64,000 nt of DNA from Flavobacteriales bacterium. Its GTDB lineage: Bacteria > Bacteroidota > Bacteroidia > CAIKAF01. The position numbers were made by a program, and so were the translations under genes. Shown piece by piece: positions 4,725-58,401 of this stretch. The DNA lies in assembly GCA_022402535.1 (NCBI GenBank), contig JAKRSD010000007.1, forward strand, positions 139,110-203,109. Reading direction: 5' to 3'. The notes below the pieces were generated by a model. That model was given only the letters and a program-made list of their open reading frames with translations. It had not been told where the DNA came from and searched no databases. How positions within the stretch are numbered: position 1 is the stretch's first letter; each line of letters opens with the position of its first letter.

Positions 4725-4771
4725 AGGTATGGGGCTAAGGTAAGTTTTTTAAAGGAGTGTGCAAAAGCCGT

Positions 4772-5500: not shown

Positions 5501-5504
5501 GAAG

Positions 5505-5512
5505 CAAAAATA
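5505..5512 (-). promoter_or_regulatory. Promoter -7 box immediately upstream of pdxJ
   Basis: TATTTTTG on the minus strand, matching TAnnTTTG, ends 4 nt before the ATG at 5500. A TTTC lies 19 nt upstream, the usual distance for a -33 element in this phylum. Transcription would begin at or next to the start codon, so the mRNA would be nearly leaderless. This box decides the pdxJ start. Confidence 0.5.
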
Positions 5513-5592
5513 TATGTTGGCAAAGGACAAAGAAACACAGAAAATGGTTCATAATTTGAACTAACGGTAACACAAAATCGTTTATACTTGCA

Positions 5593-6261
5593 ATGATGAT
5601 TGCCGGAACCATATTATCCAACGACATTCCCCCGCTGATGACTTCGGACAGCGGCCTTAAAGCTATAGCCTGGATGGAAGAATTCCGGATAAATCACCTG
5701 CCCATCGTGAACAACCGTCATTTTTTAGGGCTCATCAGCGAAGATGATATCTTCAACCTGAACTCGCCCGAAGATGCCTTGGGCAATCACGAACTTTCAT
5801 TGTCCAATCTGCATGTAAAATCGTATCAGCATGTATTTGATGTGCTGCGTGTGATGACCGATCACCGGCTCACCCTGATTCCCGTGGTGGATGAAAAAGG
5901 AGATTATCTGGGGTGTATTACCCGCAAAGAAGTGTTGGAAAGTATTGCCCAGATTTCATCGGTGAAAGATCCGGGAGCCATTGTAATTCTGGAAATGACC
6001 CAACGTGATTATTCTTTATCTAAAATTGCGCAGATCGTGGAATCGGAAGATGGCAAGATTTTAAACCTGTATATCCATACACATGAAGATGACCCGCTGG
6101 TGATGGATTTAACGTTGAAAATCAACAAAACCGACCTGAGCGCCATTCAAAATGCGTTCATGCGTTTCGACTATAAAATTAAGGCCCTGTACCATGAGGC
6201 CCAGTTTGATGATGAGCTGAAGAACCGATACGACATGCTCATGAACTTTTTAAATATGTAA
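5593..6261 (+). CDS. CBS-domain protein
   Basis: A 222-aa protein. Two CBS motifs fill the N-terminal half (about 5-55 and 70-125), with the patterns INHLPIVNNRHFLGLISEDD and LTLIPVVDEKGDYLGCITRKE. The rest (about 125-215) resembles a degenerate ACT-like regulatory fold. CBS pairs usually bind adenine nucleotides. It lies 24 nt upstream of nadK, an arrangement conserved in Bacteroidota, which suggests a regulatory link to NAD(P) metabolism that remains unproven. Two consecutive ATGs occur at the start. A TATACTTG box ends 2 nt before the first. Confidence 0.85.
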   Translation: MMIAGTILSNDIPPLMTSDSGLKAIAWMEEFRINHLPIVNNRHFLGLISEDDIFNLNSPEDALGNHELSLSNLHVKSYQHVFDVLRVMTDHRLTLIPVVDEKGDYLGCITRKEVLESIAQISSVKDPGAIVILEMTQRDYSLSKIAQIVESEDGKILNLYIHTHEDDPLVMDLTLKINKTDLSAIQNAFMRFDYKIKALYHEAQFDDELKNRYDMLMNFLNM

Positions 6262-15695: not shown

Positions 15696-18600
15696 TTACT
15701 CAATATTGATTTTGTCAATTTCTTTCATCAGCCTGTCGGTTTCGGAGAGTGCAACAATGATTTTTTGATAGTGAAGTATATCTTCAAAATCTAAAACACG
15801 GCCTTTTCTGTCTTTTAACCATTTTTGCGCCGGCTGATACCCTCCTATATAAAAGTTCCATGCTGTTGGCGGCACGTTATCGAAGTATTGGGTATCGTTT
15901 ATATAAACTTTGTTTTCTATGTAAACGGGTTTAGTAACTTCATTATCTCCGCTTATAGGGTACTTTGTAATATATTGCTCTACTCTGGGGCTTTCCAATA
16001 AATGTATCTGGCGTATTTCGCCGCCCAGTTTTACCAATTTCCAGAATGTTTCTTTGTCTTTGGGATAAGGAACTCTGGGAAAATCTATCTTTAGAAACTC
16101 TTTGTACTTCTCTCTGTAAGTTGGTGAGTGCAAAACCGCATAGATATAATCTAAAAGGTCTATGGGTGCAAAAGTGCCTTTGTCCGTTTCTTTTTCATTG
16201 GTAAACGTTAAACCCAATTTCGCTGTAATTTGCTTTACTATTTCTGTATTTAAGTTGGGTTGTCTTTCTGTTGATTGCTCAATGGTTTGCTGTCCATCTG
16301 TTTCGGGGTAGAGATATAACGGAAATTCTGTATTATTTGCATAGGCGCTTTCAAAAAGACAACTCTCACAGATACTTCTATGAATGAATGAGTAGGAGAA
16401 ATCAAATTTAGATTGTCTTTTTAATGATAAAGAAAGGTTATTATCAAATACTAAGTGCTTCATAGCCTTAGAAGCAGGACGACTTATAATTTTAGGGTCA
16501 TAGTATATCCATCTATTATCAAAAGGTCTGTATTGTATTGGCTTAAGATGGTTTTCACTATGCTGTTTGCCTTTTATTACTTTCGTCAATTTGTAGCTAC
16601 CCGAATCATTCACTTTAAATTCTTTTACAAAGTTAGCGTCAAAATCATGAGAGATTAGTTTTTTAATTCTGTTACTTAGCTTTGATTTGTCAAAATCAAT
16701 AAATAAATTATCTCTGTCTGTCTTTATGCCTGAGTTGAAAATTTCAAATAACTCATTCACTTTAAAACCTTGCTTGTAATTATCAGAATCATCAAATTTA
16801 TCAGATGTAAAAAAAAAGTATGGTGCTTTAGGTTTTAATTTTGTCCACTTAGTTGCTGCAACATTCTTTTCAATTAAAAATTGATACTTTTCATTTCGAT
16901 TACCATAGAGGTCGATGTGTAGTACATCGCAATTTTTTGATTTGGTTTTAGTTTTGACGAATATATTGATACTTACCCCTTGTTTAATGTCAAAAACATT
17001 TTGGTCTGGACTTCCATCTGGCTGATTTTCTTTAATATTTGAATTTCCGTGTAAGTCGAGAATATAAATCTTGTCAAAACTATTTGTCAAATTTTTTCTC
17101 ATCTCACGATGAGTTACACCGCTTAAAAAACTATTATTAGAAATATAAGCTAGTATTCCACTGCCATTTTTTTGAATGAAGTGTTGACCATACCTTATAA
17201 ATTTTATATAGTCGTCATCCAAATTAATTTTCTTTTCGTTTAAGTTTTCCTTGTACACTTTTATCAAGTCAAGTATCCACTCATTTTTATTCGTACTGTT
17301 ATTGCTGTAAGGTGGGTTTCCTATTACACACATTACAGGCGTGTCCCGTTTTATATGGTTTGCCTCGTTTGCCTCTGCACTTAACCAATTTGCAAACAAA
17401 GTACCCGTATCGGGGTGGCTTTCCTCCAAACTATTGGTAAGATAAACTCTAAATCTTTGGTTGGTTGTGGGTTTGTAGCCCGTTTCGGTCAACAGCATAT
17501 CCAGTTTAAGATGTGCCATTGCATAACTGGCCATTAACAACTCAAAACCGTTCAAACGGGGTATTAAATGATTTTCTACATAGGTGTTCCAAATGCCCTG
17601 TTGGTTTTCAAACTTCTGGTAAATGTGTTTCACCACTTCGGCCAAAAAAGTACCCGTACCTGTTGCCGGGTCTAAAATCTGTACTTTATGAACTTCTTTT
17701 TCTACTTGTTTACCCTGTTGAAGAACTTTTATTTTGGTTTTGCTGCTGTCCGCAATTCCCTGAGGTAAACCAAACTCAGTTTTCAGAATGTCGTCAACCG
17801 CCCTTACAATGAATTTTACAACGGGTTCGGGCGTGTACCATACGCCTCTGGCTTTTCTTAGTTTGGGGTCGTACTCAGATAAAAACGTTTCATAAAAGTG
17901 AATTATAGGGTCATTGGTTTGTGTTGATTTACCAAAGTTCTTTAATAGTGCTGCTATATCGGTAGCCCTGAATAAGTCTGCCAATCCATCAACAATCCAA
18001 ACAATACGGGTATCTAAATCATAGCCGGCGATGTACTGAAAGAGTTTCCTCAAAAACGGGTTTGATTTGGGGATTAAGTTTGCGGCCTCCTGTCGGTTAA
18101 ACGTTTCTAAAGAGGTATCGTGCAAACGTGCCGCAAACATACCATAAGCAATTGTCTGGGCATATATATCGGCAAATTCTTTGGGTTTTATATCGTGTAT
18201 CAGAATTTCTTTGAACGTATGTAACTGGCTTTGCAGGGCTGTATCGGATTGGTTGCTTTCGGCCTCATCTTCGATTAGTGCTTTTTCAATTACATCGGAT
18301 AACATCCGTGCTTTACCCGCCATCATTTCGGCCAGTTTTTTGGAACTCTTTATGGTTTGGCCTATGTATAGACAAAAGTCCGATATAAAGCGTTCAAATG
18401 CCTCAAAATTTGCAGATAGCGGTACTATTTTCCCGTTCTGGATTTCGCCGATTTTTACCGAAGTCGTGAACTCCCCGTTTAAGTAGAGGTGAAAATCTAA
18501 ATAATCGGTAATAATGAGGTTATCTAATGATGTTCTGTATCTGTCAAATTGCTCTTTTAGTGTTTTACTTTTTAGGTCAACTCCTATATCTTTTGCCTCA

Positions 18601-18824
18601 ATATACCCTACCGGAATGTCCTTTTTTGTAATGATGTAATCCGGCGCACCACAGGCAATTCTTTTGGGTTCGTTTGTGGCGGTAATATCTTTTACTAATG
18701 TTTCTATAAGCTGTTGTAAATCTCCCCTGTATGAGTGTTCTGTTGCAGTTCCTCTTTTGAATCGGTCAGAAATGGTATCAATATAGGCTTGTATGGCTTT
18801 TTGTGGCATATCCGGAATTTTCAT
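15696..18824 (-). CDS. Single-chain restriction-modification enzyme (N6-adenine methylase plus PD-(D/E)xK nuclease)
   Basis: 1042 aa from the ATG at 18824; an upstream in-frame TTG at 18839 exists. The N terminus has a PD-(D/E)xK nuclease pattern (Pro61-Asp62, Glu76-Ala-Lys78 in GYIEAKDIG). The methylase follows, with YTPEPVVKFIV, SAM-binding motif I DPATGTGTF (385-393) and catalytic NPPY (503-506). The C-terminal third is probably the target-recognition domain. I see no helicase motifs, so it is unlike the long ATP-dependent type ISP enzymes and closer to type IIG/IIL enzymes. It is the likely anti-phage cargo of the element. Confidence 0.88.
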   Translation of the reverse strand: MKIPDMPQKAIQAYIDTISDRFKRGTATEHSYRGDLQQLIETLVKDITATNEPKRIACGAPDYIITKKDIPVGYIEAKDIGVDLKSKTLKEQFDRYRTSLDNLIITDYLDFHLYLNGEFTTSVKIGEIQNGKIVPLSANFEAFERFISDFCLYIGQTIKSSKKLAEMMAGKARMLSDVIEKALIEDEAESNQSDTALQSQLHTFKEILIHDIKPKEFADIYAQTIAYGMFAARLHDTSLETFNRQEAANLIPKSNPFLRKLFQYIAGYDLDTRIVWIVDGLADLFRATDIAALLKNFGKSTQTNDPIIHFYETFLSEYDPKLRKARGVWYTPEPVVKFIVRAVDDILKTEFGLPQGIADSSKTKIKVLQQGKQVEKEVHKVQILDPATGTGTFLAEVVKHIYQKFENQQGIWNTYVENHLIPRLNGFELLMASYAMAHLKLDMLLTETGYKPTTNQRFRVYLTNSLEESHPDTGTLFANWLSAEANEANHIKRDTPVMCVIGNPPYSNNSTNKNEWILDLIKVYKENLNEKKINLDDDYIKFIRYGQHFIQKNGSGILAYISNNSFLSGVTHREMRKNLTNSFDKIYILDLHGNSNIKENQPDGSPDQNVFDIKQGVSINIFVKTKTKSKNCDVLHIDLYGNRNEKYQFLIEKNVAATKWTKLKPKAPYFFFTSDKFDDSDNYKQGFKVNELFEIFNSGIKTDRDNLFIDFDKSKLSNRIKKLISHDFDANFVKEFKVNDSGSYKLTKVIKGKQHSENHLKPIQYRPFDNRWIYYDPKIISRPASKAMKHLVFDNNLSLSLKRQSKFDFSYSFIHRSICESCLFESAYANNTEFPLYLYPETDGQQTIEQSTERQPNLNTEIVKQITAKLGLTFTNEKETDKGTFAPIDLLDYIYAVLHSPTYREKYKEFLKIDFPRVPYPKDKETFWKLVKLGGEIRQIHLLESPRVEQYITKYPISGDNEVTKPVYIENKVYINDTQYFDNVPPTAWNFYIGGYQPAQKWLKDRKGRVLDFEDILHYQKIIVALSETDRLMKEIDKINIE

Positions 18825-18856
18825 TTCCAAATATATCAATTTAGGAACATGGAAAC

Positions 18857-19915
18857 TTATTCATTGAACGTATCTATATTGTTGCTGAGTATATCCAACG
18901 TTTTTGCCGCCGGCATATAGTTGGTTAATTTCTTATCATTCCCCGAAAAAACCCAGTCAAAATCTTCCATGCTGTAAGTCAAATTTTCGTAATCGCTTAA
19001 CTCGATATATTTTGGCTCTTTGGTGCTTTTTTTACTTGTATTGAAACCAAATCTATCAAAAACACGGTGGCCTCTAAATGCTTCTATTATGTTGTGAAGT
19101 GCTGCTGCATATACCTGAGGATTTTGTCCCGACTTTCCTCTTTTTTTCATTTCGGGGTCTGTAAATATTTTGCTGCTGTATTTTACAATCTCTATCAATG
19201 CTTTTTCTTTATCCCATATTTCGGTGGCATTTTGCGCTGCTTTGGTGGCAAATTTGGAGGTTAAAAGGCTGCACCATTGTTCTACTAGTAAATCGGCCAT
19301 TTCTTTATTAGCCACGATTATATGAAAATGCGGATTGTACGTTTTGCGGATTGGGTTAAAATTGCACTCTAATGCTTTCAGCCCTACTAATTTAATACCC
19401 GTACCCCTCTGATTGCGTTTTTTATTTCTGTCCAATATAATTCTAAATCCTCTGAGCATTTGAGTAACTCTGTTTTTTAAGCTTTTGGCGGGGCATGATT
19501 TACAGGTTAAGGTAACAAAGTATGGATTATCCCAATCCAATATTTCTGTCAAATACGTGTTAATTATGGCTGCTTTCCTAATACTGGAACATAAGGTGCA
19601 AAATCTGTTTTTACAGAAATCTCCGTAAATTCTACCGTTTGCTTTTACCAATTTGTTTTGGCAATGGTATGTATTCCAAAATGATTTTTTACTCCTTTCA
19701 TTTTGTTTTGCCTCAGATACATCAATTAGTTTAAGGCAAATTTTTTGGGTAAGCATTTTCCGTTTAGCCCTATTTTTTAGTCCGATTTCTTTTTCTATCG
19801 GTATACCTTCGCCGGCGACAATTTTAGTCTGTTTTGGGGAGTTATTTGTCCCACTTTGTACTAATGTATTGAATTGCCTTTCCCCAAAGGCCGATAAAAC
19901 ATTTTGATGTTCCAT
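18857..19915 (-). CDS. Rolling-circle replication initiator (HUH Rep)
   Basis: 352 aa. A Cys cluster (C101, C106, C109) is followed by the three motifs of the pC194/pUB110-type Rep family: motif I YFVTLTCKS (134-137 VTLT), motif II NPHFHIIV with His196 and His198, and motif III KYSSK with catalytic Tyr246 and Lys249. It nicks one strand to start replication and forms a 5'-phosphotyrosine link. Its ATG overlaps the stop of the HTH gene by one base (TAATG), so the two are coupled. Its presence suggests the excised circle can replicate. Confidence 0.88.
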   Translation of the reverse strand: MEHQNVLSAFGERQFNTLVQSGTNNSPKQTKIVAGEGIPIEKEIGLKNRAKRKMLTQKICLKLIDVSEAKQNERSKKSFWNTYHCQNKLVKANGRIYGDFCKNRFCTLCSSIRKAAIINTYLTEILDWDNPYFVTLTCKSCPAKSLKNRVTQMLRGFRIILDRNKKRNQRGTGIKLVGLKALECNFNPIRKTYNPHFHIIVANKEMADLLVEQWCSLLTSKFATKAAQNATEIWDKEKALIEIVKYSSKIFTDPEMKKRGKSGQNPQVYAAALHNIIEAFRGHRVFDRFGFNTSKKSTKEPKYIELSDYENLTYSMEDFDWVFSGNDKKLTNYMPAAKTLDILSNNIDTFNE

Positions 19916-20208
19916 TAATCTGCTGTTTTGTTATTGCCCAGAGGAACTAATACAGCTTCTATTTCACTACGTTTATAGTAAATGCGGTTGCCGATACCAT
20001 AAGGTTTAAGCTTTCCTTTCTTAGTCCAATTGTGAATAGTTGATAAATCGCATTTGAGCATGGTCGCAACTTCATTGCGTGTCAAATACTCAGTAGGTTT
20101 TACTGGCTCAAACTTTTCTTTAATTTCCCTGATACTCTGATTGAGTTTCTCAAATTGGCGAGAAATTTCTTCGGGGGTTAATTCGTGCAGTATTGTGGAC
20201 TGTTTCAT
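19915..20208 (-). CDS. Helix-turn-helix DNA-binding protein (excisionase-like)
   Basis: 97 aa from the ATG at 20208; the frame opens 12 codons earlier at a GTG. The C-terminal half is a HTH_17/MerR-like domain: YLTRNEVATMLKCDLSTIHN, then WTKKGKLKPYGIGNRIYYKR. This is the standard excisionase-family module in Bacteroidota elements. The N-terminal part is a short coiled coil. It is coupled to Rep by overlapping TAATG. It may act as a directionality factor for the integrase or as a regulator of rep. Confidence 0.85.
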   Translation of the reverse strand: MKQSTILHELTPEEISRQFEKLNQSIREIKEKFEPVKPTEYLTRNEVATMLKCDLSTIHNWTKKGKLKPYGIGNRIYYKRSEIEAVLVPLGNNKTAD

Positions 20209-20288
20209 TTGTGAATACTTTCGACAAATTTTATAACAGGCCACGTCCTATTTAAAAGACGTTATTGTCCTATTTTAGGACAGAAAAA

Positions 20289-21623
20289 TTATCTGAAATC
20301 CTTCTTTATTTTTCTGTATATGATGTCTTTCTTTGCGTTTGAACTATTTCTACTTTTGAATTGAGAGTATCTGTCCCCCAAATCAGCACCATAATGCTTA
20401 TCTAAAAAATCAATAAAACCCTGTTGTTTAATGTTATGTAAATAACTATCATTCAACATTTTGTAATATATATAACTATAATCCGAATATTTAGTTTTTT
20501 CGTTCACTAATTCGGATTTTAATGCCTCAAAAAGTCTAAAGCCCTTCACAGATATAAAGATATTTGGGTACGGATTATCATTATTCACATCGACTTCTAT
20601 CGGGTCTTTTAATACAGAAATCAACTCATCAATAAATTCCTTTTCATCTCTATACCATTTGTTTAATAATTTAACGTACCGGCGTTCCTTATTATTCGGG
20701 TTTCCCTTATAGGGTTCTTTTAACTTATGCTTTCGTTTTGTAATGATTAAGTCGAATTTTGCCTGTTTAGCTTCATTCAGCGTCCACACCTTTTTTAGAT
20801 TATACTCGGTAAATTGTCTTAGCATTGAATCCGTTTGATTTTCCAACGCTTCTAATAAGGTGTCCTTTGTATGATATCGTAGTTTCTCGCTTCCCGTAAA
20901 CTCATTTTTAATCCCTGTATCCTTAATAAATGGTATAATAGTTCTATAAGAGTTTTTTAATCTACTTAATTGTGGTGCTAAATGAAAAGGAAACATCTGA
21001 TACCATTTCTCATAAATTGCCATAATAGCTTCAAAATCAATATTTACAGGCTTATTGTTTCTCTTTTTTTCTAGGTAGGATATTATTTTTGCTTTCTTAT
21101 CAGAATCAATCTTAATTTTCTCAACGGTTTCTTTTAGATATATGTAATAATCATTTAGAAATAGAGGTAAACCGCAATTTCTGGGCATTTCTCCAAAACT
21201 TTCAACACACCAATCTATATAGTCGTTAATCGTTTTTTCCCAATTTTTTGTGTTAATGTTATTTACTATGTGCTGTTTGGTAAAAATTACTTTTTCGGCA
21301 GTCATTTGGGGCGAATTATCAAAATCTTTACGCTCAAAATCTTTATGCCCAATAAGGTTTTTATGCCCTTCGCAACAATTTGGAAATCCTTCAACGCTTT
21401 CATTTCCTAAATATTTATCAGTCAATATTTTATATATCTTCTGATATGCATTTTGGCAAAATTCACATTTTAGATAGTCATGTTCTCCGATTGTAGGGTA
21501 AACAGGGTATGGAATTTCATATATAGAAAATTCTCCAACACTAAATGAATACTCCCCATCCAGTTGAATGTCTTTGGGGTTGCTTAATTGTAAGCTAAAC
21601 TTCCTTTTTATTGGGTCTGCCAT
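20289..21623 (-). CDS. Unknown 444-aa element protein with a putative zinc site
   Basis: I do not recognise this family with certainty. The protein is soluble and Lys/Asn-rich. A Cys/His cluster near the N terminus (Cys53, Cys56, Cys83, Cys84, His87) could bind zinc. The middle and C terminus are predicted helical, and the last 70 residues (LFEALKSELV to RKIKKDF) recall helical C-terminal modules seen in accessory proteins of Bacteroidota mobile elements, for example RteC-like proteins; this is only an impression. It lies 8 nt after the integrase stop and ahead of the HTH gene. It may be a regulator of excision or replication. Confidence 0.75.
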   Translation of the reverse strand: MADPIKRKFSLQLSNPKDIQLDGEYSFSVGEFSIYEIPYPVYPTIGEHDYLKCEFCQNAYQKIYKILTDKYLGNESVEGFPNCCEGHKNLIGHKDFERKDFDNSPQMTAEKVIFTKQHIVNNINTKNWEKTINDYIDWCVESFGEMPRNCGLPLFLNDYYIYLKETVEKIKIDSDKKAKIISYLEKKRNNKPVNIDFEAIMAIYEKWYQMFPFHLAPQLSRLKNSYRTIIPFIKDTGIKNEFTGSEKLRYHTKDTLLEALENQTDSMLRQFTEYNLKKVWTLNEAKQAKFDLIITKRKHKLKEPYKGNPNNKERRYVKLLNKWYRDEKEFIDELISVLKDPIEVDVNNDNPYPNIFISVKGFRLFEALKSELVNEKTKYSDYSYIYYKMLNDSYLHNIKQQGFIDFLDKHYGADLGDRYSQFKSRNSSNAKKDIIYRKIKKDFR

Positions 21624-21631
21624 ATTTGAGT

Positions 21632-22846
21632 TTATTTTATGTATTCGGCTAATTGAATAGCTTTCTGGGTTTCTGTTTTACCGATGTAGGTTAAAAACAT
21701 CTTCTCTGTTGAATGTCCCGTAACTCCAATAAGCAAAGAGGTCGGAATGTGGCCAAAATAGTTAGTAGAAAAAGACCTTCTTCCGATATGGGACGTTACC
21801 AACTCCCATTTTTCAAAAGTCCCCTTCATTTTTCTAGTTCCATTACCGTTGGTATGAGGTTTTGAACCTTGTGTTTTTTCATTAATCTGGGCTTTCTTAC
21901 ATACTTCTTTTATATAATCGTTGTATCTCTGGTCGCTTATTTTACGGGGAAAATTTCCGTTTCTTCTATCCAATATGTTTTGTACCTTTTTGCTTACAGG
22001 TATAGCAATCATTTTACCTGTTTTCACTTGCGTAAATTCAATTAATTTGACTCCCGACTCTATTCTTATCAAATCTTTGGTAAACCGCATGAAATCAGAA
22101 ACTCGCTGCCCGGTTTCACAACTTATAATTAGCCAATCCCTTGCATTTACTAAGTGTTCGGCTTCCAGTTCAACATTTTCTATTTTTTGAATCTCCTCAG
22201 GGCTAAGAAATATTGACTTTACTTTTTCAATTTTAACAGCTATGTTACTCAGTTGGAAATGTGTTTCAATGCCGTTGGATTGTGCATGATAACATAGTGT
22301 TTTTATAAACTTTATGGCTCTGGCAATCGTATTGGGTGCATAGTTTTGACTTATGCAGTATTTTTCAAACTCTAGTTTGAAGTTCGCATTAACATCTTTA
22401 ACATGGTAAATTTGTTTACTATCAATCTGAAAACGCTCAATCAGTCTTTTATTTACAATCAGTTTTTTATGTGTCGATTTTTCAATTGTTCCTTTCTTAT
22501 GTAATGCATAATAATCAAAATACTCAACTAGCTTAGTTGGTATTTTATCATCATTATCTGGAGGGTTTATAAAATCTTTAAGCCATTTTGAGTTAATTTC
22601 CTGTTTCCCTACACTATTATTGAAGTGTGCCAATAAATCAGCTTTCAAATCTGAAAGTTGTTGATTGAGTTTTTTATTTACTACATCATTAAGGTTTTTG
22701 GGTTGACCTTTTGCGGCACTCCATTGCTCTGGATTTACGGCAAATCTTGTTTTTGCTTTTGCGTCAGTATATCTCCCATCCCTTAGTCGTACATATATGC
22801 CGGCGGGACTCTTTTTACTTTGAATGAAAAAATTTATTGTTGCCAT
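21632..22846 (-). CDS. int: Tyrosine site-specific recombinase (integrase)
   Basis: 404 aa from the ATG at 22846; an in-frame start at 22885 would run through the arm repeats. It has an N-terminal arm-binding domain, a core SAM-like domain (about 105-210) and a catalytic domain with Arg248 (TGQRVSD), His353-Ile-Gly-Arg356 (SHIGRRSF), His378 (TGHSTEK) and nucleophile Tyr387 (LTYIGKT). It catalyses insertion into and excision from ssrA. It lies at the right end of the element reading inward, with its promoter region in the arm-site cluster. Confidence 0.95.
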   Translation of the reverse strand: MATINFFIQSKKSPAGIYVRLRDGRYTDAKAKTRFAVNPEQWSAAKGQPKNLNDVVNKKLNQQLSDLKADLLAHFNNSVGKQEINSKWLKDFINPPDNDDKIPTKLVEYFDYYALHKKGTIEKSTHKKLIVNKRLIERFQIDSKQIYHVKDVNANFKLEFEKYCISQNYAPNTIARAIKFIKTLCYHAQSNGIETHFQLSNIAVKIEKVKSIFLSPEEIQKIENVELEAEHLVNARDWLIISCETGQRVSDFMRFTKDLIRIESGVKLIEFTQVKTGKMIAIPVSKKVQNILDRRNGNFPRKISDQRYNDYIKEVCKKAQINEKTQGSKPHTNGNGTRKMKGTFEKWELVTSHIGRRSFSTNYFGHIPTSLLIGVTGHSTEKMFLTYIGKTETQKAIQLAEYIK

Positions 22847-22865
22847 GCTCCAAATATATGGATTT

Positions 22866-22896
22866 AGTCCACATATAATCCACATTTAGTCCACAT
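22866..22896 (+). repeat. Right arm-type integrase sites / int operator
   Basis: Three direct words, AGTCCACAT (22866-22874), AATCCACAT (22877-22885) and AGTCCACAT (22888-22896), spaced exactly 11 nt. They sit 20 nt upstream of the int ATG, so they probably serve both as recombination arm sites and as a site of int autoregulation. The same word recurs at the left end (15364). Confidence 0.7.
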
Positions 22897-25030: not shown

Positions 25031-25063
25031 AAAGCCGAAAAAAAAATTTTCGGCTTTTTTATT
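25031..25063 (+). terminator. Hairpin terminator after the M28 peptidase gene
   Basis: AAAGCCGAAAA pairs with TTTTCGGCTTT and is followed by more T residues. It separates the peptidase from the 25224 gene, which must therefore have its own promoter in 25065-25223. A TACTACTTTGG stretch near 25182 is a candidate, with an imperfect match. Confidence 0.8.
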
Positions 25064-25223: not shown

Positions 25224-28200
25224 ATGAGTACCTATTTCTTAGTACATCTAACATTACCCTCTGAATTCCAACGCTTTTCTTTTAAAGTATTTGCTACGGA
25301 TGCTTCAGGTAAAATCATCACGGGCGAAGGATATTCTCTTGAAAAAAGTGGATATGTCCAAATTCCTGTTGTAGAAGGCATCGGATCTTATTTTCCGTAC
25401 AGGTTAGTCTTGCGCAATGGGGTTAAAACAGCCGGATTTTTAGAAATTCCCGACAAAAAAACACTTGCTGTTTCTTTACTTTCAGAAAAAACGGGCTTGC
25501 AATACGACAAAGCGCTTTGTTTTAAAATGGTTGAATGGGGGCAAATCCAATTTAACCCGACCCTGATAACTGATTACAAACCGATAAAAGAACCGGATAT
25601 GAATATGAAAGAAGAAACTCAGGAACCTACTGTAATCCTCAGTATGCCTAAAAAAGTAGAAAGCTTGAAAGAATATCCCATAAAAGGAAGAATCATTGAT
25701 AAAAAAGGAGAGCCCTTCAAAGCGGCTACTTTTATTATTTATGTGCAGGATCATACTAAAACGGAAGAAGAAGGACGATACTTTCCCTTATTAACTGCAC
25801 ATACCGACCAACTCGGTTCTTTTCAGATTTCGGTACAAAACAAATCGTATTCTGGAGCCAAAATCACGGTGGGTGCAGCCTATGATGAACCCATTGAAAT
25901 TAATCTGACGCAAGAAGGCAAATTGCCCGAGTTCACCTTGGTGGTGACGGATTATCCTGTAGAAGCGTATAAATCTGTTGACGACGACGATTGCGGATGT
26001 GGAGTTCCGCCAGACAGACTGCCCGAAATGGAAGATCTCCTGAACCCCGACAACAAATACCAACAAGATATCGGCGGATCGTGTGTGAATTTTACCACAC
26101 CCAACCGGGCTTTGGAAGAGTTTTCGTTTTATAAAATTGTCAGAACCACTGACCCTGAAGTAGTATCGCAGGAAATCCTGTTTCAGATAGAAGCAATTAA
26201 TGAGCAGCTCCGCAATTTGAGGAGTCAACTGCTAAACCTACAGCGGTATAAATCGGCGGCCGTTTATGAAAACACGCAAAAACTTGCCGGTAAAGGCGTT
26301 AATCCCAACACCCCTACTCAACCCATGGCCGGCTCCGAAACCGAAATCCGTAATCTGGAAAATCAGATTGCAGACCTGGAGGGTAAGCGGAATGCCCTAT
26401 ACAGAGGTGCAAGCGGACGCAGAAGTTTAGGTATGGAATTCAGCGTAGATTGGGATCAGACTCCCACTACTTTTCAGGCAACGACCATTGCACACGGGCA
26501 TATATTAGAATTCAGACAGGTATGGCGTGCCGACGGATACAGCATGGGAGACCTGTTGTATTCACTTCCCTTGGCCCCCGGCCAAAAAAAGCAAATCGCC
26601 ATTTTTGATTGGGACAGAAGGGAATCGGCATCCAGAACTGAAGACCAGACTCAGGAAGAATCACTTCAGAATACGTTGAGCAGAGACCGCGATGTTTCAG
26701 ACATCGTAAAATCTACCCTTAATGAATCATTGGAAGGAAGCAGTTCCAGCAACAGCAACAGCACCACGAAAAGTATAAGTGCCACGATGGGTACGCCGCC
26801 GGTATCTCCCGTTTCTGCCAGCGTAACGGCCGGAATCAGCAACACAAAAAGCTCTGCCAGCAGCGAATCGAGCCAACAATCATCCCGGGACTTAGCAGCT
26901 AGCTCCATGCAACAGCTGCGCGATAAAACCATGCAGAGTGCTTCTTCTTTACGCTCTCAGCGTTCTACGGTTATACAAGCCGTGAATCAGGGCGAAAGCA
27001 TGAACGTGACTACTGAGTCCGTAGCTAACTATAACCACTGCCATGCCATCACTATTCAATATTTCGAGGTGTTAAGGCATTTTGCCCTTTCTACCGAATT
27101 GGCCGATGTAAAAGAATGTCTGTTTGTCCCACTGCCCATGACATTGTTTGACAATGCCAAGGTGATGCGCTGGCGCGAAATATTAGTAAAAGCTGTTGGA
27201 AACAGATGGTTTCTGAGAGGTTTTGATGCCGTAGCCAGAGCCGAACAGGCCCGGATTGAAGGCCCTAATACCACAGCCTATGCCGATTTGCCGCCCACAC
27301 GGTACTGTGATGAGCGCTTCACATACATTGATGTGAAAATCCGCTTGCGTTGCCATTTAGCCCGACCTGCAGAAATATATCCTGCCGACACCCCCACTCT
27401 CCAAACCCTCATGACCACCACGGCAACGGGTATTTTCGGAATCACCTCGCCTCAGGTTTTGCTGGAAGAAGCGCAAAAAGCCGCTTTGCTGAATCACCCC
27501 GCCGATTTGGATAATTGGAGAGTGCAGATTGGATTTATTCCCGGTTGGACGCATATAAGAAACCGCGTACTGAACGCTCCGCGCGAACAGAGAGATATAG
27601 TTTTTCAGCAAGAAATTGAAGCTGCGGATTGGATCAGTCATTTTATCGACAAAACGGTTCTTTCATTGGAAGGCATACTTCCCATTCCCGGTTCGCTGAG
27701 AATACTAAACCGGAGTAATCCTAAAATTGACAAATTCAGAAACGGAAGTGCCGGAAGAGGAACTGAAGTAACCGTAGGCGTAACATATAATGAACCTGCC
27801 GGAGTTCCTATTACCAGAGAAAGAATCAGCAAACTGACCTACCAGATTGCCTATGTAGGCGGAAACACGCCAGCCATCACGCAAATGCCCGACGGAACAA
27901 GTATCCGTATGGTTGGCGGCTCGGGAAGATACCGCACCCGTACATTCAGCGGGTTATTGTTTAATGAGTTCACTTCTCCGCTGGATTTGGCCCAGGGCGA
28001 CCGTATCGACATTCCCACACCGCTCACGCACGAAGAAATGCGAAATCCGCGCCAGGAACTGGAAAGAGCCAGAGTGGAACTGCTTCAACACCTGAACAAC
28101 AACCTGGAGGTATACCACAGCTGGCTGTTTTACTACATGAGCCCTGAAAGAAGATACATGATGCTGGATGGAATTCAGGTAAAAGTACCGAACCGGCATA

Positions 28201-29366
28201 TTCCCGGACAACCACAGCCCGGTCCGAATGATTTTACCATGCGAAGTGTGGCTTCCGTGGTAGAAAACCGGATTATCAGCATTGTGGGCAACACCATGGT
28301 GATGCCGGTAGCAAGCGGATTTAATTTAGATCCGACCTTCCGTTACGATGATGATTTGGTTACGCTGGACGACGGAAGAAAAGTATCTCTGCTGATGTAT
28401 CATTACATGCCTGAAAAAGGATTCAAATCAGCTCCATTCCGAATCAGTGTACCTACTAAAGGCGTATTTGCTGAGGCCGTAACGGGAGCCTGTAATTCAT
28501 GCGAAAAAATTGATGATACCCGGTTCTGGAAGTGGGAAGAACACCCGATTCCGGACAGTCCTACCGGAATTCAGACGATCAGTACCGACAGTCGCCGGGC
28601 AGAAGTAGGCAACCTGCAGGCCAAGGAGTTTGCCCAACCTATGGTGAACATTCAAAATGCACCTGAAGCCCCTGCTTATGGAGGAGTTGCCGCTGCCTTA
28701 GAAGCCATTACAAAAAATGATGCATTCCGCGATGCCACCGGATTAGCGGGAACTCAGGAGTTAGTAAAAGAAGGCTTAAAAGCCAGCGGTGAGGCTCAGA
28801 AACATGCCATGGAAAAAGCGGCCGAAATTACCAAGCAGGCCATGAATCAGAAGAACAATCAATCGCTTACCCAACAGATCAAAAACTCCGGTTTACCCAA
28901 AGAAAAACAGCAGGAACTGATGGAAGAGCTGCTTCGTTCGCAGATATCCGGAAAAACCCAAAAGGACGACCCGAACAAGGGCGGAGGGGAAAAGCCTAAA
29001 AAACCCGTTTACGGTCCTGATTCCATGAAAGTAGTGGCAAGTGGCTCAGAACAGGGAAAAGGAGACTTTGTTCAATATGCCGACGGGCGTAAAGTTTATG
29101 TGGACGATGACGGAAATGCCGTTGACATGGGTAAAAAAGGTAAAGACGAGTTCGGGAATTATACAATAGATAAATATGGCCGTAAAATCTATGACGGAGA
29201 TACAACCGAAGGAGGATCGGCTGCCATCTCACCAAGAAATTATACCGACAACCAACAGGATGCTCTCAGAAGCACGGCTCTCAACGAAATGAATCAAATT
29301 ATTCAAAACTTCAATAATCAATTTCCTGCACAGGATTTAGATGATAATAACCAACCTACCGCATAA
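25224..29366 (+). CDS. Unknown 1380-aa protein paired with a caspase-like protease
   Basis: I do not recognise this family. There is no signal peptide, transmembrane segment or T9SS tail, so it is probably cytoplasmic. Visible parts are an N-terminal beta-rich region; a carboxypeptidase-regulatory-like beta-sandwich (about 150-245, KGRIIDKKGEPF); an Asp-Cys cluster DDDDCGCG (about 253); coiled coils (about 316-395); a motif-like block with HGHILEFRQVWRADGYSMGD then YSLPLAPGQKKQ (about 424-460); a Ser/Thr/Gln-rich linker (about 500-590); a CHAITIQYFEVLRHF block (about 606); a long beta-rich C-terminal half with GVFAEAVTGACNSCEK (about 1083); Ala/Lys-rich helices (about 1150-1240); and a charged tail. 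The caspase gene follows after 20 nt. It may be a scaffold, sensor or substrate of that protease. Confidence 0.85.
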   Translation: MSTYFLVHLTLPSEFQRFSFKVFATDASGKIITGEGYSLEKSGYVQIPVVEGIGSYFPYRLVLRNGVKTAGFLEIPDKKTLAVSLLSEKTGLQYDKALCFKMVEWGQIQFNPTLITDYKPIKEPDMNMKEETQEPTVILSMPKKVESLKEYPIKGRIIDKKGEPFKAATFIIYVQDHTKTEEEGRYFPLLTAHTDQLGSFQISVQNKSYSGAKITVGAAYDEPIEINLTQEGKLPEFTLVVTDYPVEAYKSVDDDDCGCGVPPDRLPEMEDLLNPDNKYQQDIGGSCVNFTTPNRALEEFSFYKIVRTTDPEVVSQEILFQIEAINEQLRNLRSQLLNLQRYKSAAVYENTQKLAGKGVNPNTPTQPMAGSETEIRNLENQIADLEGKRNALYRGASGRRSLGMEFSVDWDQTPTTFQATTIAHGHILEFRQVWRADGYSMGDLLYSLPLAPGQKKQIAIFDWDRRESASRTEDQTQEESLQNTLSRDRDVSDIVKSTLNESLEGSSSSNSNSTTKSISATMGTPPVSPVSASVTAGISNTKSSASSESSQQSSRDLAASSMQQLRDKTMQSASSLRSQRSTVIQAVNQGESMNVTTESVANYNHCHAITIQYFEVLRHFALSTELADVKECLFVPLPMTLFDNAKVMRWREILVKAVGNRWFLRGFDAVARAEQARIEGPNTTAYADLPPTRYCDERFTYIDVKIRLRCHLARPAEIYPADTPTLQTLMTTTATGIFGITSPQVLLEEAQKAALLNHPADLDNWRVQIGFIPGWTHIRNRVLNAPREQRDIVFQQEIEAADWISHFIDKTVLSLEGILPIPGSLRILNRSNPKIDKFRNGSAGRGTEVTVGVTYNEPAGVPITRERISKLTYQIAYVGGNTPAITQMPDGTSIRMVGGSGRYRTRTFSGLLFNEFTSPLDLAQGDRIDIPTPLTHEEMRNPRQELERARVELLQHLNNNLEVYHSWLFYYMSPERRYMMLDGIQVKVPNRHIPGQPQPGPNDFTMRSVASVVENRIISIVGNTMVMPVASGFNLDPTFRYDDDLVTLDDGRKVSLLMYHYMPEKGFKSAPFRISVPTKGVFAEAVTGACNSCEKIDDTRFWKWEEHPIPDSPTGIQTISTDSRRAEVGNLQAKEFAQPMVNIQNAPEAPAYGGVAAALEAITKNDAFRDATGLAGTQELVKEGLKASGEAQKHAMEKAAEITKQAMNQKNNQSLTQQIKNSGLPKEKQQELMEELLRSQISGKTQKDDPNKGGGEKPKKPVYGPDSMKVVASGSEQGKGDFVQYADGRKVYVDDDGNAVDMGKKGKDEFGNYTIDKYGRKIYDGDTTEGGSAAISPRNYTDNQQDALRSTALNEMNQIIQNFNNQFPAQDLDDNNQPTA

Positions 29367-29386
29367 CATACTTAATCATACCATTT

Positions 29387-30436
29387 ATGAGCGTACAAGC
29401 ACAACAAGAAGCTGCAAGCCCCAATCCAAGCGGATTTTATAATAACGGACGGGCACTGATTGTGTCTATTCAAGATTTTAGAAGGCTAAGAAACACTTTG
29501 AGAAGTAAGGGATTGGACGGGTATTACGGACCATTAGGATATACACATGAATCAGGCGAGTTTTTCAAAGAGATTTTGAAATTTCAATCGGGTTCATGGG
29601 GCGCCAAAGATTATGCTTCCAGAAACTACAGGATGATACAAGACAGTGATGCCACCTATCTGAATATTATCTCCGGTATTTTAACATTAGCTTCTGAGGC
29701 TGTTCCCGGAGATGTAGTTACCATCACCTTCTCTACTCATGGTGAATCTGTTCCGACAAGCAGCAGAACCGACCAAAAAATCAACCTGAATTATGTGGCA
29801 TTATATGATGAATTCCTAAGCGAGTTTGAATTATATGTATTGCTGAGACTATTTAAAAAAGGGGTGAGAATTTTTGTGTGTTTTGATTGTTGTCATTCGG
29901 GCTCCTGGATGAATTTTAATCAGTTAGATTATTACGATGCCACTGCAACCTTGAGCAATATCATGGCAAAACTTGAAAATACGGGAAATCGGTGGGCCTC
30001 TGAACTGCTTAAACAAAATTACTCCAACATGGTAGAAAACTTTGATATCTCTGCAAGTGCATGTATGGTAGGAGGATTAAGGGATGCCGTTCCGATGAAT
30101 GACTATTTAAACAGTGCCCGATTTTATTTATATAATCTTGCGGATGAAAATAGAGAGATGCCTATCCGCGAATTTATTTCTAGAACGAGGTCTGTTATTT
30201 ACAAAGCCATGGAAAATAATTATAGGCTGAAAATAGGGTCTATTTTTCCTTATTGGTTTGCATTGTATGAAGAATATGTAGAAAAAAAGAAAAATCCTGT
30301 TGTAGACGAAAGTCTTGTTTACAACCCCAATAATTCAAAACATGTAACTGTGGTTCGATACTTCTGCCCCACTGTAGGCTTTATCGGAAAAGACACCGAT
30401 ATTTTTGACGAAGTACCCGCATTCGGATTGTATTAA
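29387..30436 (+). CDS. Caspase-family cysteine protease (peptidase C14)
   Basis: 349 aa with no signal peptide. The p20-like caspase fold shows GRALIVSIQDF (21-31), the catalytic His118 in TFSTHGES and the catalytic Cys169 in FVCFDCCHSGSW (Cys168 precedes it). Strand-helix repeats follow, and a C-terminal segment of about 100 aa is unassigned. Orthocaspases and metacaspases normally cleave after Arg or Lys; specificity cannot be read here. It lies 20 nt behind the 1380-aa gene on the same strand and stops 1 nt from the convergent M28 gene, so the two-gene operon is complete in the window. Confidence 0.9.
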   Translation: MSVQAQQEAASPNPSGFYNNGRALIVSIQDFRRLRNTLRSKGLDGYYGPLGYTHESGEFFKEILKFQSGSWGAKDYASRNYRMIQDSDATYLNIISGILTLASEAVPGDVVTITFSTHGESVPTSSRTDQKINLNYVALYDEFLSEFELYVLLRLFKKGVRIFVCFDCCHSGSWMNFNQLDYYDATATLSNIMAKLENTGNRWASELLKQNYSNMVENFDISASACMVGGLRDAVPMNDYLNSARFYLYNLADENREMPIREFISRTRSVIYKAMENNYRLKIGSIFPYWFALYEEYVEKKKNPVVDESLVYNPNNSKHVTVVRYFCPTVGFIGKDTDIFDEVPAFGLY

Positions 30437-43911: not shown

Positions 43912-46900
43912 TTATTTCGCGATAATCAGTCTCAGTGTGGCTTCAGCCTGACTTCCTGTAAGGCGCACAAAGTAAGTGCCTGCAGCAAGGTGCTGAACAT
44001 CGGTCGTAAACGTAACTGTTTCAGAAGCGTTTCCGATCCACTCGGTAGACACCACCTGACCCACGGCATTCAGAATATCCATACGGATGCCGTTACCGGT
44101 GTTTCCGGTAATCTGAATCGTAAAGCGATCGCTGGCCGGATTCGGGAACATATCCACAGAACCTCCGTTTGCACCAAATGAAGCTATAGATGCTGTGAAG
44201 TTTACATTCACTTCATCCGAAGCAGTACATCCAAACGAGTTTGTTACCGTTACGCTGTATGTACCATTTTGGGTAACCGTAATAGTTTGGGAAGTGGCTC
44301 CTGTATTCCATAAATAAGAAGCAGCTCCCGATCCGCCATTCAAAATCACCGGAGGATTAGGAACAGCAATATCGTTACCCAGATTCACTACCGGCAAAGG
44401 ATTCACGGTTAAGTTGGTTACGATTATACTATCACAACCGTTCACCGTTTGAAGGTTTGACGTGTAAGTTCCTGCCTGATTAACCGTATTTCCATCAGGT
44501 AACAGATAGGATGCATCAGCACAGATAGCAGCATTTACGGTGTTGTTAAATACAGGATTCACGGTAAGAGTAACCGTTACCACACTGTCGCAGCCATAAA
44601 TTGTGCTGGTACCAGCTGTATAATTACCTGGGGTAGAAACGGTAGCACCATTCACCAGCGTATACGTCTGCCCCTGACAGATAGAAACTGGAACGGTTAC
44701 ATTGTAATTTTGTCTCACAGTTAAATCAACAATCACCGTACTGTCGCAGCCTGTTGCCACTGATGGAACGGTTACGGTATAAATATCTGTGGTGTTAACC
44801 ACGGTTCCGTTGGCAAGTGTGTAAGAACCGCCGGGACAAATATTAGCCGTTACATTGGTTGTATATATCGGATTTACGGTAAGGTTCACCGTAATGGTAG
44901 AATCACATCCGTTAATGGCGTTGAATGGGAATACATATGTTCCCGCTGTGCTGGACGTAGTACCATCAGGCATGGTGTAGGACTGATTTGCACAAATTAC
45001 CGGATTTAAGGTGCTGGTAAAGACCGGCAAAACGGTAAGGTTAGTTACAAATGTACTGTCGCAACCGTTTGCCGAGGCAAAAGTAACCGTGTACGTTCCG
45101 GGAGTATTTACCGAAGTTCCATTTTGTAGTTGGAATGTTTCGTTTGCACAAATGGTTTCATTGGCTGTAAATAGCTGAGCCGGTAAAACAGTAAGGTTAA
45201 CCGTTACCGTACTGTCACAACCTGCAACAGAAGGAACTGTAACCACGTAAGTATTCGCTGTGGTTACCACAGTTCCATTGGCAAGAGTATAGGTCTCGTT
45301 TGAACAGATTGACGTATTAACCGTATTGTTGTATGTTGGGTTTACGGTAAGGTTCACCACAATAATACTGTCGCATCCTGCAACTGTTGAACGCTGTTCA
45401 AAATATGTACCTGTAGTAGAAACGATGGTACCATCAAAAAGAGTAAACGTTTGGTTATCGCAAATTTGCGGATTGGTTTGAACCACATATGTAGGATTGA
45501 TAGTTACATCCACACTGGCATTACCCGGGCAGGCATTGGGAGATGTTACCAATACCGAATAGGTACCTGATGCTGTTGGTGTAATACTTTGTGTAGAGGC
45601 TCCTGTATTCCAAAGGAACGTGTAATCAAAGGGGCTTCCCGTCAGGGTTACCATATCAAATCTTGCTGTTCCGCCGGTTCCGTAAGTAGAACCCGAGTTA
45701 ACCGCCACGTAAGAAGTGCCACTGGCTAAATCAAACGCACTCACTACACGGATACCCAAATTAGGATTGTTATTCGCAGCAGGATGAACGGAAAAGTCAA
45801 TCACTTGATTGTTAATGAATACACCACCTGTCGAATATATCAGGGTATCTACAGAAATCCAGGGAGATAAACCATTGGTTATGTCGGGATTATACTGAAC
45901 CAAATACGTATTGGCAGCGGTATTGGATAAACGGATATCAAAGCTGAAAGATAAATCCGTATAACCCGCAGTACTGATGTTAAACTGGGTTCCCGCAGTA
46001 CCTGAGCCTGTGTTTTGTGCAGGATAACTTGTAGTATTTAAAGCCTGACCGGGTTGTACCAAATCTGTAGAACCTGCACCAGAAACTAAGGTTTGAGTAG
46101 TACCTCCTACTGCTAAAACAGATCCGGCTCCAATTGTCGGAAGCAGATCGGTGTTAAAGTTCCACTGAGTAATTACTGCCGGTGCACCGGCAGAAAGACC
46201 CTCCACATTTAACACCAAAGGATCACCTTGGCAAATGGTAATCGGCCCTGCAGGAGAAATGGTAATCGGGGTTGACGCAATGTTCGAAACCACTACGGAA
46301 TCCGACAAAGTTGACCATAAACCCAAAGTGGCATTGTAAGCACGGATATAGTATGTGTCATTTAAAAATACAACTAATGAATCCGTAGCCGGTGAAGTTA
46401 AATCTGTACCGTTAGATGAAGTTTGCCAGTACCATTCAACCCCGGCTTCAGGTGAACCGACGGCATACACATAAGTACCATTGGTACATGAAGGTACTAA
46501 CGAATCCTGAAGCGGAGTATTCGGTTTCATCGGATAGTTGGCAAATTCATCAGCGCCCATATCCGGAGTTGTTCCGCGTAAATCGCCATCTATATCGTCG
46601 GTTACTTCAGCCAATACGGTACCTAAATCAATCAATGAAATATTGGTAGCAGCAGGAAGATGTAAATCTGTGGCAGAAGTAAATACAGGCGCTATGTTCA
46701 CGGAGTTGGCATCCTGTCCTGTTGCAGTTTGCCAGTTTGCCAGCGTGGCTCTGTCAGAAGTCAAGAATCCTGTGAATGCCTGTGAATTGTATGCGTAATA
46801 ATTGTTATGGTTTATATTTGAAAATGCGGATGAGGCGGAGTTGCTGTAAATAGCATACGATTTTGCCCCAGCATTTAATGGGTTTACAATACCATTTGAC

Positions 46901-49900
46901 AATATATTATTCCGAATATCAATATTTGTTTGGTTTGAGCCAACATAAATACCTGTTGAAACGGTGGCAGTAGCTGCCCGGGGTTGATCTCCGTATAAGT
47001 TAATTGAGTTGTTATATACTTTAATACCGCTTTGTGAAGTAGTAATACCTACAATAATTCCAACATTGATATCTCCCGGTATACCGGCTGTCCATCCGTC
47101 TCCATTGAGATTGGCGATCATGTTATTTGAAACCAACAGATTAGAATTTGCAGTATTTGTTTGGATATTAATTCCTTTTGAGCCATATCCGCCTGTGCCG
47201 GTATAAGCCAAATCATGAATATAGTTTTTAGTAACTTCTGTATTAATTACGCCGGTTCCAATAAAAATTCCAGTCGGATTGTTCGCCGGATTGATAATGT
47301 TGAATACCTCATTTTTTGAGATGACAGAACCATTAGCTTGTGCAACAGTAATACCTCTGTTTCCAATATAATTATCAATAATACTAGAACCAATAATATT
47401 ATCAACTATCTGGAGATTATCATTACGTCCCGTGGCATTTGCTGCTACATAAATACCATAATGAACTTTCCATATTTCATTGTTCTCAATAAGCAAATTA
47501 TCATTATCATCCCCTGCTGCAGTATTAGTTAATGAATTGTTAGCAGCATGAATTCCGAAACTGGTTACTGCTGTATTTGATCCACCAATAATTTTAATGT
47601 TTTTAATTGTATTATTTGTCGCACCTGCATTAGTGCCTAAGCTCGAAACAGTGATTACACTTCTTGCTGCAGCAGTAGCCGTATTTTCAAGAGTTAAACT
47701 TCTGTCTGTTCCGTTGTTGTTAGAACCATCAATGGTTACAAAATCTGCTCCATTTAATAATATGATGCTTGAGGTTGAATTCCCGCTGATCAAAGCAGTA
47801 TTTCCAGCCGCAGGACGAATAGATAACGTATTTACTGCACTGGCAAAGTTGTTATTATTTATCGTAATCGGATATGATTCAGACGGATAGGACGCATCAA
47901 TTAATTCAAATACAACTGGGCCAGAAAGGCAAGAGGTGTTATATGCATTCGCCGCTGCAGTCAGGGTTGTATAGTTTCCACTTACCCCTACAGAATATAT
48001 TCCTGAAAGGGTAGGGCTTATAGAATAATTGTTTGAGGTGGCAGGGTGAGTAACCACTGTATTAACATCTGTTGCCACCACACCAGAAGGCGTTGAGCTA
48101 ATATTTGGAGTAGCAACGATATCCTGAGCAATAACATAATAATTTACCACATCACTAACAACAAGGCTTCCTAAATCGGATGCTAAAATGGCGAATGTCC
48201 AAGTTCCATTTATTCCATTTCCTGAAGATAAAGTACCGGGCTGAGAAAACCAGGCTCCACCATTTTTATTGTAGTAAACTCTTGGAACCAAAGAACCTGA
48301 AACGGGAACTCCTGATGCATCAGTAATTATTGCCGTGAGGGTACGATCTCCTGTAGAACAGGTGAAAGAAAGGGGTGTATAAGATATTTGTGGAGCGGAT
48401 AGGTCTGAAAGTAAAAACTCTCCTTCATCAGCTCCAATATCCGGTGAAGAACCCGTTCCGGTATATCCGGGATTGCCGGCACGAATATCCCCATCAAAGT
48501 CATCCACAATACCGGTAATGTTATCAGCACCACTTTCAATTTGAGTGGCAATTGATGGATTAATATGTAAGAAATTGGGCGCAGAACCTACCAAACTTAA
48601 GAAATTTGGATTTTCAGTTATGGAATTTGCATCCGCAGAAGCTACCCTTGTTTTAAAATCATTAATGGTCTGGTCAGCATTTGTTCCATCATAAAAAATA
48701 AGATTTGAAGCCGAGGGAACACCAGCATATAACAGGTTTCGGTTTGAAGCCGAATTGTAGTTAGCTAATGCCGTTGAAGATCTCTGATAAGCTGTAGAAA
48801 ATCCTGTACCGGCGGCAACAGAATTATTCACCAAAATGTTATTCCTCAGGGTAAGATTGAATGTGGTGGCCGTTGTAGATGTCGTCACCCACAAGGCTGT
48901 TGTTCCAAAGTTTGCCCCGGTAGAAGATGCATTCAGAACAACCGTATTAAAAGACACATTTACCTGCGAATTAGCCGTAGTACCTGTAATATTAATTCCT
49001 CTAATTGTAGGGGAAGTAGCGGAAGAAGTGCTTGCATTAGGCGCTTTTATATCTCCAATGTAATTGTTATATATATTCGCCTGTCCTGCTGTACCCAAAG
49101 AGGATAAAATGATTCCAGAAACCGTAGGAGCACCCGACGATGTACTTTGCACATCATAAATTTTGTTTTTGAAAACATTGGGAGAGCTGGTCGTCATTAC
49201 CATTCCTGCAACAGTGGTTCCATTAGTGGATATTCCATAAATGGTGTTGTGTGAAACTGTTCTTGTACCTGTCACAGTATTGGTATTTATACCGTAGGTT
49301 GTTCCAGTTCCGTTATGAATTATATTAAAAATTGTGTTGTAGTTATAATTTTCATTTACGGGTGAAGAAATATTGTAAATACCAAATAAAAGACCTGTTC
49401 CTGATGTTTTTAAACAGGAGAGGTTACTCACAGTATTACTGTCAACCACTATGTTACCGGTTGAAGCCTGAATTCCATACAAAGTACTTGTAGTTCCTGT
49501 TCCGTCAATAGTTAAGTTGTTTACTACGTTGTTGTTTATTTTAACATTCATGCCTCCTGTTCCTACCGTAAATGCAATACCAATGGTAGTACCGCCTGTG
49601 GTTCCCAAACGGCTTATGTTTTGAACCGAGTTGTTATTACAGTTTACATTCATGGCCGCATTGCTCACACTGTTGTGAATTCCGTAATTCACTCCGGTAC
49701 CGGAGGTAGCTAAACTACCATAAGACATTCCTGTAATCACATTGTTGTTCATATTCAAAAATGCAGGTGTGGCCGCATTCCATATTCCATGAAATGCTCC
49801 GGTTGTAGCCGTGTTGTACTCTAATGACAATGTGTTGTTGTTGATATTAATTGTATTTCCTGCCGGAGTAGAACCCGCCTGATTGTAAATTCCGGTAACC

Positions 49901-58359: not shown

Positions 58360-58401
58360 TACTTTTGAAACCGAATTTTGAACGGATAAAATTATAAAAT
58401 T

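Follow-up and report, generated by a model that had tools for sequence, protein, structure and literature searches.

Gene Pair and Genomic Setting

The window, which is the whole stretch of 64,000 nucleotides that was analyzed, contains on its forward strand two ORFs starting with ATG that encode proteins of 1380 and 349 amino acids, respectively (Table 1). The first gene, which carries the core of the protein family described below, and the second, which codes for a caspase-type protease, are separated by 20 nt, and a convergent gene begins 1 nt past the end of the latter. This layout, together with the hairpin that closes the upstream unit, agrees with the two-gene unit behind a terminator delimited in the first-pass annotation. 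The GC contents of the caspase gene and of the core gene differ (38.4% versus 46.3%). The gene order around the flanking M28 peptidase gene is not conserved in the window's own family, so that an insertion of the pair cannot be read from synteny.

An A+T-rich block (34.8% GC; 15696-22885, reverse strand) ends 2.3 kb before the core gene. One of its genes encodes a restriction-methylase of type ISP/IIG, with a Type_ISP_C score of 292 bits. Also present are genes for a Rep_1-like protein, a probable tyrosine integrase, and a small protein resembling DNA-binding proteins, and the block is probably a small mobile defence element. The restriction enzyme on this integrase-bearing element is the defence gene nearest to the pair in the window, and defence neighbours are found near the core in three loci; both observations are anecdotal. 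Two reverse-strand genes of the window (43912-50937 and 54931-58683) encode large secreted proteins of 2341 and 1250 amino acids with type IX secretion sorting domains.

Table 1: Features of the gene pair, with positions in the window and residues of the encoded proteins.
Feature	Positions	Strand	Basis
Terminator-like hairpin, closes upstream unit	25031..25057	+	11-pair stem and T-run; sequence read
Core gene, 1380-aa modular protein	25224..29366	+	ORF and homologues
Variable N-terminal module, residues 1-152	25224..25679	+	HhH domains at same place in several homologues
CarboxypepD_reg-like beta domain, residues 153-228	25680..25907	+	Sub-threshold Pfam match
Conserved core, residues 395-1215	26406..28868	+	About 49% mean column identity, 19 sequences
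Predicted long beta-hairpin, putative membrane-insertion region, residues 455-601	26586..27026	+	AlphaFold, Foldseek, Ser+Thr 34%
Ser/Thr/Gly-rich, low-charge hairpin tip, residues 499-559	26718..26900	+	Composition
Conserved NYNHCHAIT motif, residues 602-610	27027..27053	+	Family alignment
PTKGVFAEAVTGACNSCEK motif, residues 1077-1095	28452..28508	+	Family alignments
Short C-terminal tail without enzyme, residues 1216-1380	28869..29363	+	Tail comparison
Conserved junction, xPDGxxV-like in relatives; homology to other members stops after it	29064..29105	+	
C-terminal helix-like segment, candidate caspase docking site	29247..29327	+	Similar segment ends Belliella tails
C14/metacaspase-like protease, encoded in trans	29387..30436	+	Pfam, alignment, structural-relative match
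Catalytic His118 codon	29738..29740	+	Invariant in subfamily alignment A5
Catalytic Cys169 codon	29891..29893	+	Invariant in subfamily alignment A5

The Large Protein and Its Family

Searches of Pfam, NCBIfam, PADLOC, and PHROGs assigned the 1380-aa protein to no convincing family, and no PDB profile matched it; the lowest E-value (0.0013) belonged to an 18-residue PHROG match. Its earlier description as a protein of no known family has thus been upheld. The carboxypeptidase-regulatory-like domain proposed at the same time does correspond to a CarboxypepD_reg match, but one whose score of 16.8 bits lies below the Pfam cut-off of 32.3 bits.

The protein is the founder of a rare and patchily distributed family with members in several bacterial phyla and in one haloarchaeon. 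Scanning of genome contigs revealed 18 homologous loci across several phyla, namely, in Bacteroidota, Legionella, actinobacteria including Mycobacterium, Verrucomicrobia, Acidobacteria, and alpha- and betaproteobacteria, to which plasmid searches added Caballeronia, Psychrobacter, Polaromonas, Nostoc, Streptomyces, and the haloarchaeon Haladaptatus. With sampling uneven across lineages, a core homologue was present in 4 of 396 Bacteroidota, 6 of 149 members of the Belliella family, 4 of 77 of the Legionella family, and 2 of 297 of the phylum holding the Mycobacterium member. Near-invariant motifs are located around HGH, NYNHCHAIT, and PTKGVxAEAVxGxCNSCE; the HGHILEFRQVWRADGYSMGD and GACNSCEK blocks, originally noticed in the single sequence, proved in the homologue alignments to be motifs of the whole family. 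N-termini vary among homologues, several of them including helix-hairpin-helix (HhH) domains, and minimal stand-alone core relatives of 435-462 amino acids exist. Distant members retain model positions of about 29-290 and 490-727 with the intervening stretch replaced; in the Streptomyces clavuligerus member, the mid-core insert is filled by a Tectonin domain (score exactly at the cut-off).

A phage or viral origin of the core was rejected, as there were no relatives in viral contigs and no significant fold match of the core model among viral structures. A core homologue is present in one unverified "Bacteriophage sp." record (MT835996.1), an unannotated contig whose remaining ORFs resemble high-GC bacterial genes; the record may be mislabelled. 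Directly upstream of one distant core homologue, an SpvB/TcB-like gene (338 bits) is found (L080, 5525-7426).

Exchange of C-Terminal Modules

Homology between members extends through a conserved helical stretch and an xPDGxxV-like junction; there it ends and unrelated modules start. A papain-like Peptidase_C70 domain is located at the C-terminus of five homologues, with three from Legionella adding Amidase_2 behind it; M23, OmpA (two homologues), DUF2272, and reprolysin-like modules were further identified by Pfam. Metallopeptidase-like modules with HExxH motifs (L006, L009, L014, L017, L018, and L077) and alpha/beta-hydrolase-like modules with GHSRGG motifs (L007 and L020) were assigned by eye, none passing a Pfam threshold. 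Tail similarity is undetectable in 150 of 171 homologue pairs, and tails are unrelated even at core identities of 73% (L006/L013), 70% (L018/L019), and 64% (L008/L011). Most fused members have tails of 253-678 amino acids; cores accompanied by a caspase in trans have enzyme-free tails of 154-165 amino acids, a combination seen only in the window and in two Belliella cores. A constant core followed, beyond a junction, by exchanged C-terminal modules is a trait shared with polymorphic toxins.

Three loci deserve separate mention. The haloarchaeal member, encoded on a Haladaptatus plasmid (L036, 7335-11435), contains DUF2272; its host, as a haloarchaeon, is not known to have peptidoglycan, and the locus may be relevant to attacks by archaea on bacteria. 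In L077, the core gene is followed immediately by a gene (4229-5974, reverse strand) whose 581-aa product has an HExxH-type motif and is possibly another enzyme supplied in trans. In L012 (11112-13099), the C70 domain begins in the core ORF and continues in the following one, which may reflect a frameshift or a recent gene split.

The Caspase-Like Protease and Its Link to the Core

The 349-aa protein is a C14/metacaspase-like protein and a predicted protease. It matches PF00656 with 26.2 bits (cut-off, 21.4 bits), its closest solved relative is GSU0716 (E=1.6e-9), and the His118/Cys169 dyad named in the first-pass annotation is invariant in its subfamily. With GSU0716-like caspases and metacaspases it shares the p20 domain including the HG and DxCHxG motifs, whereas its C-terminal half is its own and full-length versions are found only beside cores. 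These are the proteins of the window, of Belliella aquatica (two copies), and of B. alkalica; no other was found in the remaining core-bearing genomes or elsewhere among the 396 Bacteroidota, where the caspase model matched the p20 part alone, with scores not above about 60 bits. Because those four members served to build the model, their own high scores are given by construction, and the informative part is the absence of further full-length matches. The second C14 protein of the window's own genome (L001 on contig C4, 1399-3705), with a signal-peptide-like start and TPR-like repeats, is unlike the window caspase.

The core-bearing set comprised 29 genomes, listed as 30 entries because one genome appears twice (as G205 and as G418). 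In three of these, that is, at the window and at two Belliella loci, the caspase adjoins the core; it is the sole recurrent neighbour directly adjacent to it. The same caspase subfamily directly behind the same core supports a functional link of the two genes, the pairing being based on two lineages. The caspase as an obligate partner of the family was rejected, since 26 of the 29 genomes have no caspase neighbour, a situation that the first-pass annotation had itself named as counting against its model. Other homologues bear different C-terminal hydrolases, and the caspase is therefore one of several interchangeable modules. From the original proposal of a scaffold or sensor with its own protease, the gene linkage remains; the essential partnership is not supported, and the scaffold or sensor role is less likely than membrane insertion of the core.

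The two Belliella loci (L004, 7944-14756; L005, 7944-13761) belong to different species and share the cores in otherwise nonsyntenic surroundings. The cores are 99% identical over about 1000 residues, and 62 of 69 differing codons are synonymous; judged from these codons, they are under purifying selection. Outside the core, identity is about 55% in the N-termini, about 35% in the tails, and 29-41% in the caspases, and one locus has a doubled caspase gene. Together with the GC contrast in the window, this divergence is the trace that would be expected from module exchange around a constant core.

Predicted Structure of the Core

An AlphaFold model of the window sequence (pLDDT 62), in which coiled-coil-like helices are present, gave no significant fold match in the PDB. 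A second model, for which a more typical homologue (L013) was used as query, gave significant matches. Both models agree on a very long beta-hairpin, whose strands enter a low-confidence Ser/Thr/Gly-rich stretch; the segment previously regarded as a Ser-rich linker would form the tip of this hairpin and is thus more than a linker. The best Foldseek match of the second model was to aerolysin pores (E 1.1e-5, probability 0.77), followed, ahead of all else, by lysenin pores, the anthrax PA channel, the epsilon-toxin pore, CDTb, and Ib. TM-scores were below 0.2 (about 0.1) and the hairpin pLDDT was below 50; the Foldseek result is therefore a lead that carries moderate weight, the interpretation as a pore is founded on topology and composition, and long hairpins by themselves might yield such matches.

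Ser and Thr account for 34% of the hairpin region in the window and for 18-34% in homologues, compared to 13.8% of the whole core. Insertion regions of the aerolysin family comprise 75 +/- 8 residues with 23-44% Ser+Thr (PMC4823867); the predicted region of about 142 residues overlaps with this range in composition and is about twice as long as the norm, hence lying outside that description, and no Pfam or PDB profile of the aerolysin family matched the core. Many members have Gly-rich hydrophobic hairpin tips, which are reminiscent of the glycine zipper whose use in translocation was reported for a T6SS effector (PMC10240207).

Export, Immunity, and Injection Particles

By hydropathy analysis (not SignalP), with the neighbouring M28 peptidase as positive control, neither protein of the pair has a hydrophobic N-terminal signal, which bears out the view that neither is exported by such a signal. 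The same analysis gave no clear export signal for the homologues examined; the listed N-terminus of L077 is hydrophobic, its start codon being uncertain. The genome uses a T9SS, as is evident from Por_Secre_tail domains in window ORFs, and according to Pfam the large protein contains no T9SS sorting domain and the core family no known export or trafficking domain. Neither a shared immunity gene nor an adjacent secretion machine was found beside the core. The lack of signals and of an immunity gene favours suicide, or release by lysis or by a particle, over classical secreted antibacterial toxins.

All three caspase-linked genomes gave a phage-sheath match, which in one genome scored under the family cut-off, and two of the three have gene clusters that read as eCIS-like. 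Sheath genes occur in 13 of 29 core-bearing genomes, compared to 10 of 51 without a core (Fisher p=0.02). This association is weak; genome size and lineage confound it, and it is no longer significant for full-length Bacteroidota members (p=0.14). What reads as an eCIS-like cluster in the window's own genome (L139-L140, contig C9) has a sheath-like gene, identified by Pfam, along with tube-like, spike-like, and baseplate-like genes recognized by eye.

Comparison with Known Systems and Proposed Function

Our preferred reading, to which we assign a probability of roughly 0.4, is that a new family of polymorphic modular effectors is represented here by its caspase-carrying version, with a core that is probably membrane inserting and a hydrolase supplied in trans. 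The beta-rich core would insert its long amphipathic hairpin into a membrane in the manner of aerolysin- or PA-type pores, while the exchangeable hydrolase would sit beyond the conserved C-terminal junction, in most members fused to the core as a papain-like protease, a metallopeptidase-like or alpha/beta-hydrolase-like domain, a peptidoglycan amidase, M23, or DUF2272. In the window, where the fused enzyme is absent, the caspase-type protease of the next gene would substitute for it, probably held by the variable C-terminal tail of the core. The likely role would be to breach an envelope, with the hydrolase attacking behind, in competition or antagonism; the attack would be directed outward. 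The comparisons demonstrate the family, its conserved core, the exchange of tails, and the linkage with the caspase, and from these and the predicted structure membrane insertion, docking of the caspase, and an outward attack are inferred.

This scenario combines traits of several systems. As in polymorphic toxins (Rhs, CdiA, MuF, and PVC effectors), modules are swapped behind a constant core and a conserved junction, and papain-like, OmpA, and caspase modules are common to both; in contrast to these toxins, a known trafficking domain and an immunity gene are lacking, and the modules identified in the sample seen are almost all hydrolases. With aerolysin-type beta-PFTs, as well as PA, Ib, and CDTb, the core shares an insertion region rich in Ser and Thr with long strands predicted on either side of it, but it differs from them in having no sequence homology, no signal peptide, an insertion region about twice as long, and hydrolase modules.

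A pore-former-like gene beside one or two caspase-like proteases, as present in the window and at both Belliella loci, is also the arrangement of bacterial gasdermin-caspase operons, in which other proteases, lysozymes, and amidases serve as alternative partners (PMC9612521). The pair might accordingly be a suicide device, in which the caspase, upon infection or damage, would cut the tail of an autoinhibited cytoplasmic pore-former that then perforates the cell's own inner membrane and kills the cell, the fused amidases and M23 domains of relatives acting as endolysins after pore formation. We regard this as the main rival, less likely than the preferred reading: the cytoplasmic location, the missing immunity genes, and the directly adjacent caspase, doubled in one Belliella, are explained by it equally well as by an effector, the partner classes are those of gasdermin operons, and the N-terminal HhH domains could sense DNA in the cell. 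Against it, most members fuse the enzyme to the core and have no activating protease alongside; the DUF2272, Tectonin, OmpA, and Big_1-like modules look extracytoplasmic; and the DUF2272 version is carried by a haloarchaeon. Moreover, no gasdermin match was obtained in Pfam or PADLOC, the core is several times larger than gasdermins, and its first 90 residues contain no cysteine for the known N-terminal lipid anchor.

Two further explanations are less supported. That the core is the carrier, and the caspase the payload or processing protease, of an eCIS or Tc-type toxin complex would fit the sheath matches in the caspase-linked genomes, the SpvB/TcB-like gene upstream of a distant homologue, and the occurrence of OmpA and papain-like modules in PVC-linked toxins (PMC3482391); it is improbable given that no examined homologue lies inside an eCIS cluster, that all core-bearing Legionella are without a sheath match, and that the statistical association is confounded as described. 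A module for scaffolding or regulated proteolysis that acts in the cytoplasm and has no membrane activity, as envisaged at the outset, would account for the cytoplasmic-looking proteins, the coiled-coil-like helices of the model, and the caspase pairing, and is likewise doubtful in view of the fusion of cell-wall and protein hydrolases at a common position, the rapid exchange of ends, and the pore-former type of beta-hairpin. On the strength of the AlphaFold hairpin and the Foldseek matches, a membrane-inserting core is the likelier of the two.

Summarizing, the polymorphic effector reading would tentatively define a class of bacterial and archaeal membrane-inserting proteins not described before, in which a beta-hairpin pore core is combined with interchangeable hydrolases and one branch has separately evolved a pore-plus-caspase pair unrelated to gasdermins. 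If this is true, the partnership of caspase and pore arose a second time, outside gasdermins, and the link between caspases and membrane rupture would be a recurrent solution in prokaryotes. The family further offers natural tail swaps for testing how the core recruits its enzyme, including the two proteins from Belliella, in which nearly identical cores go with divergent tails and caspases.
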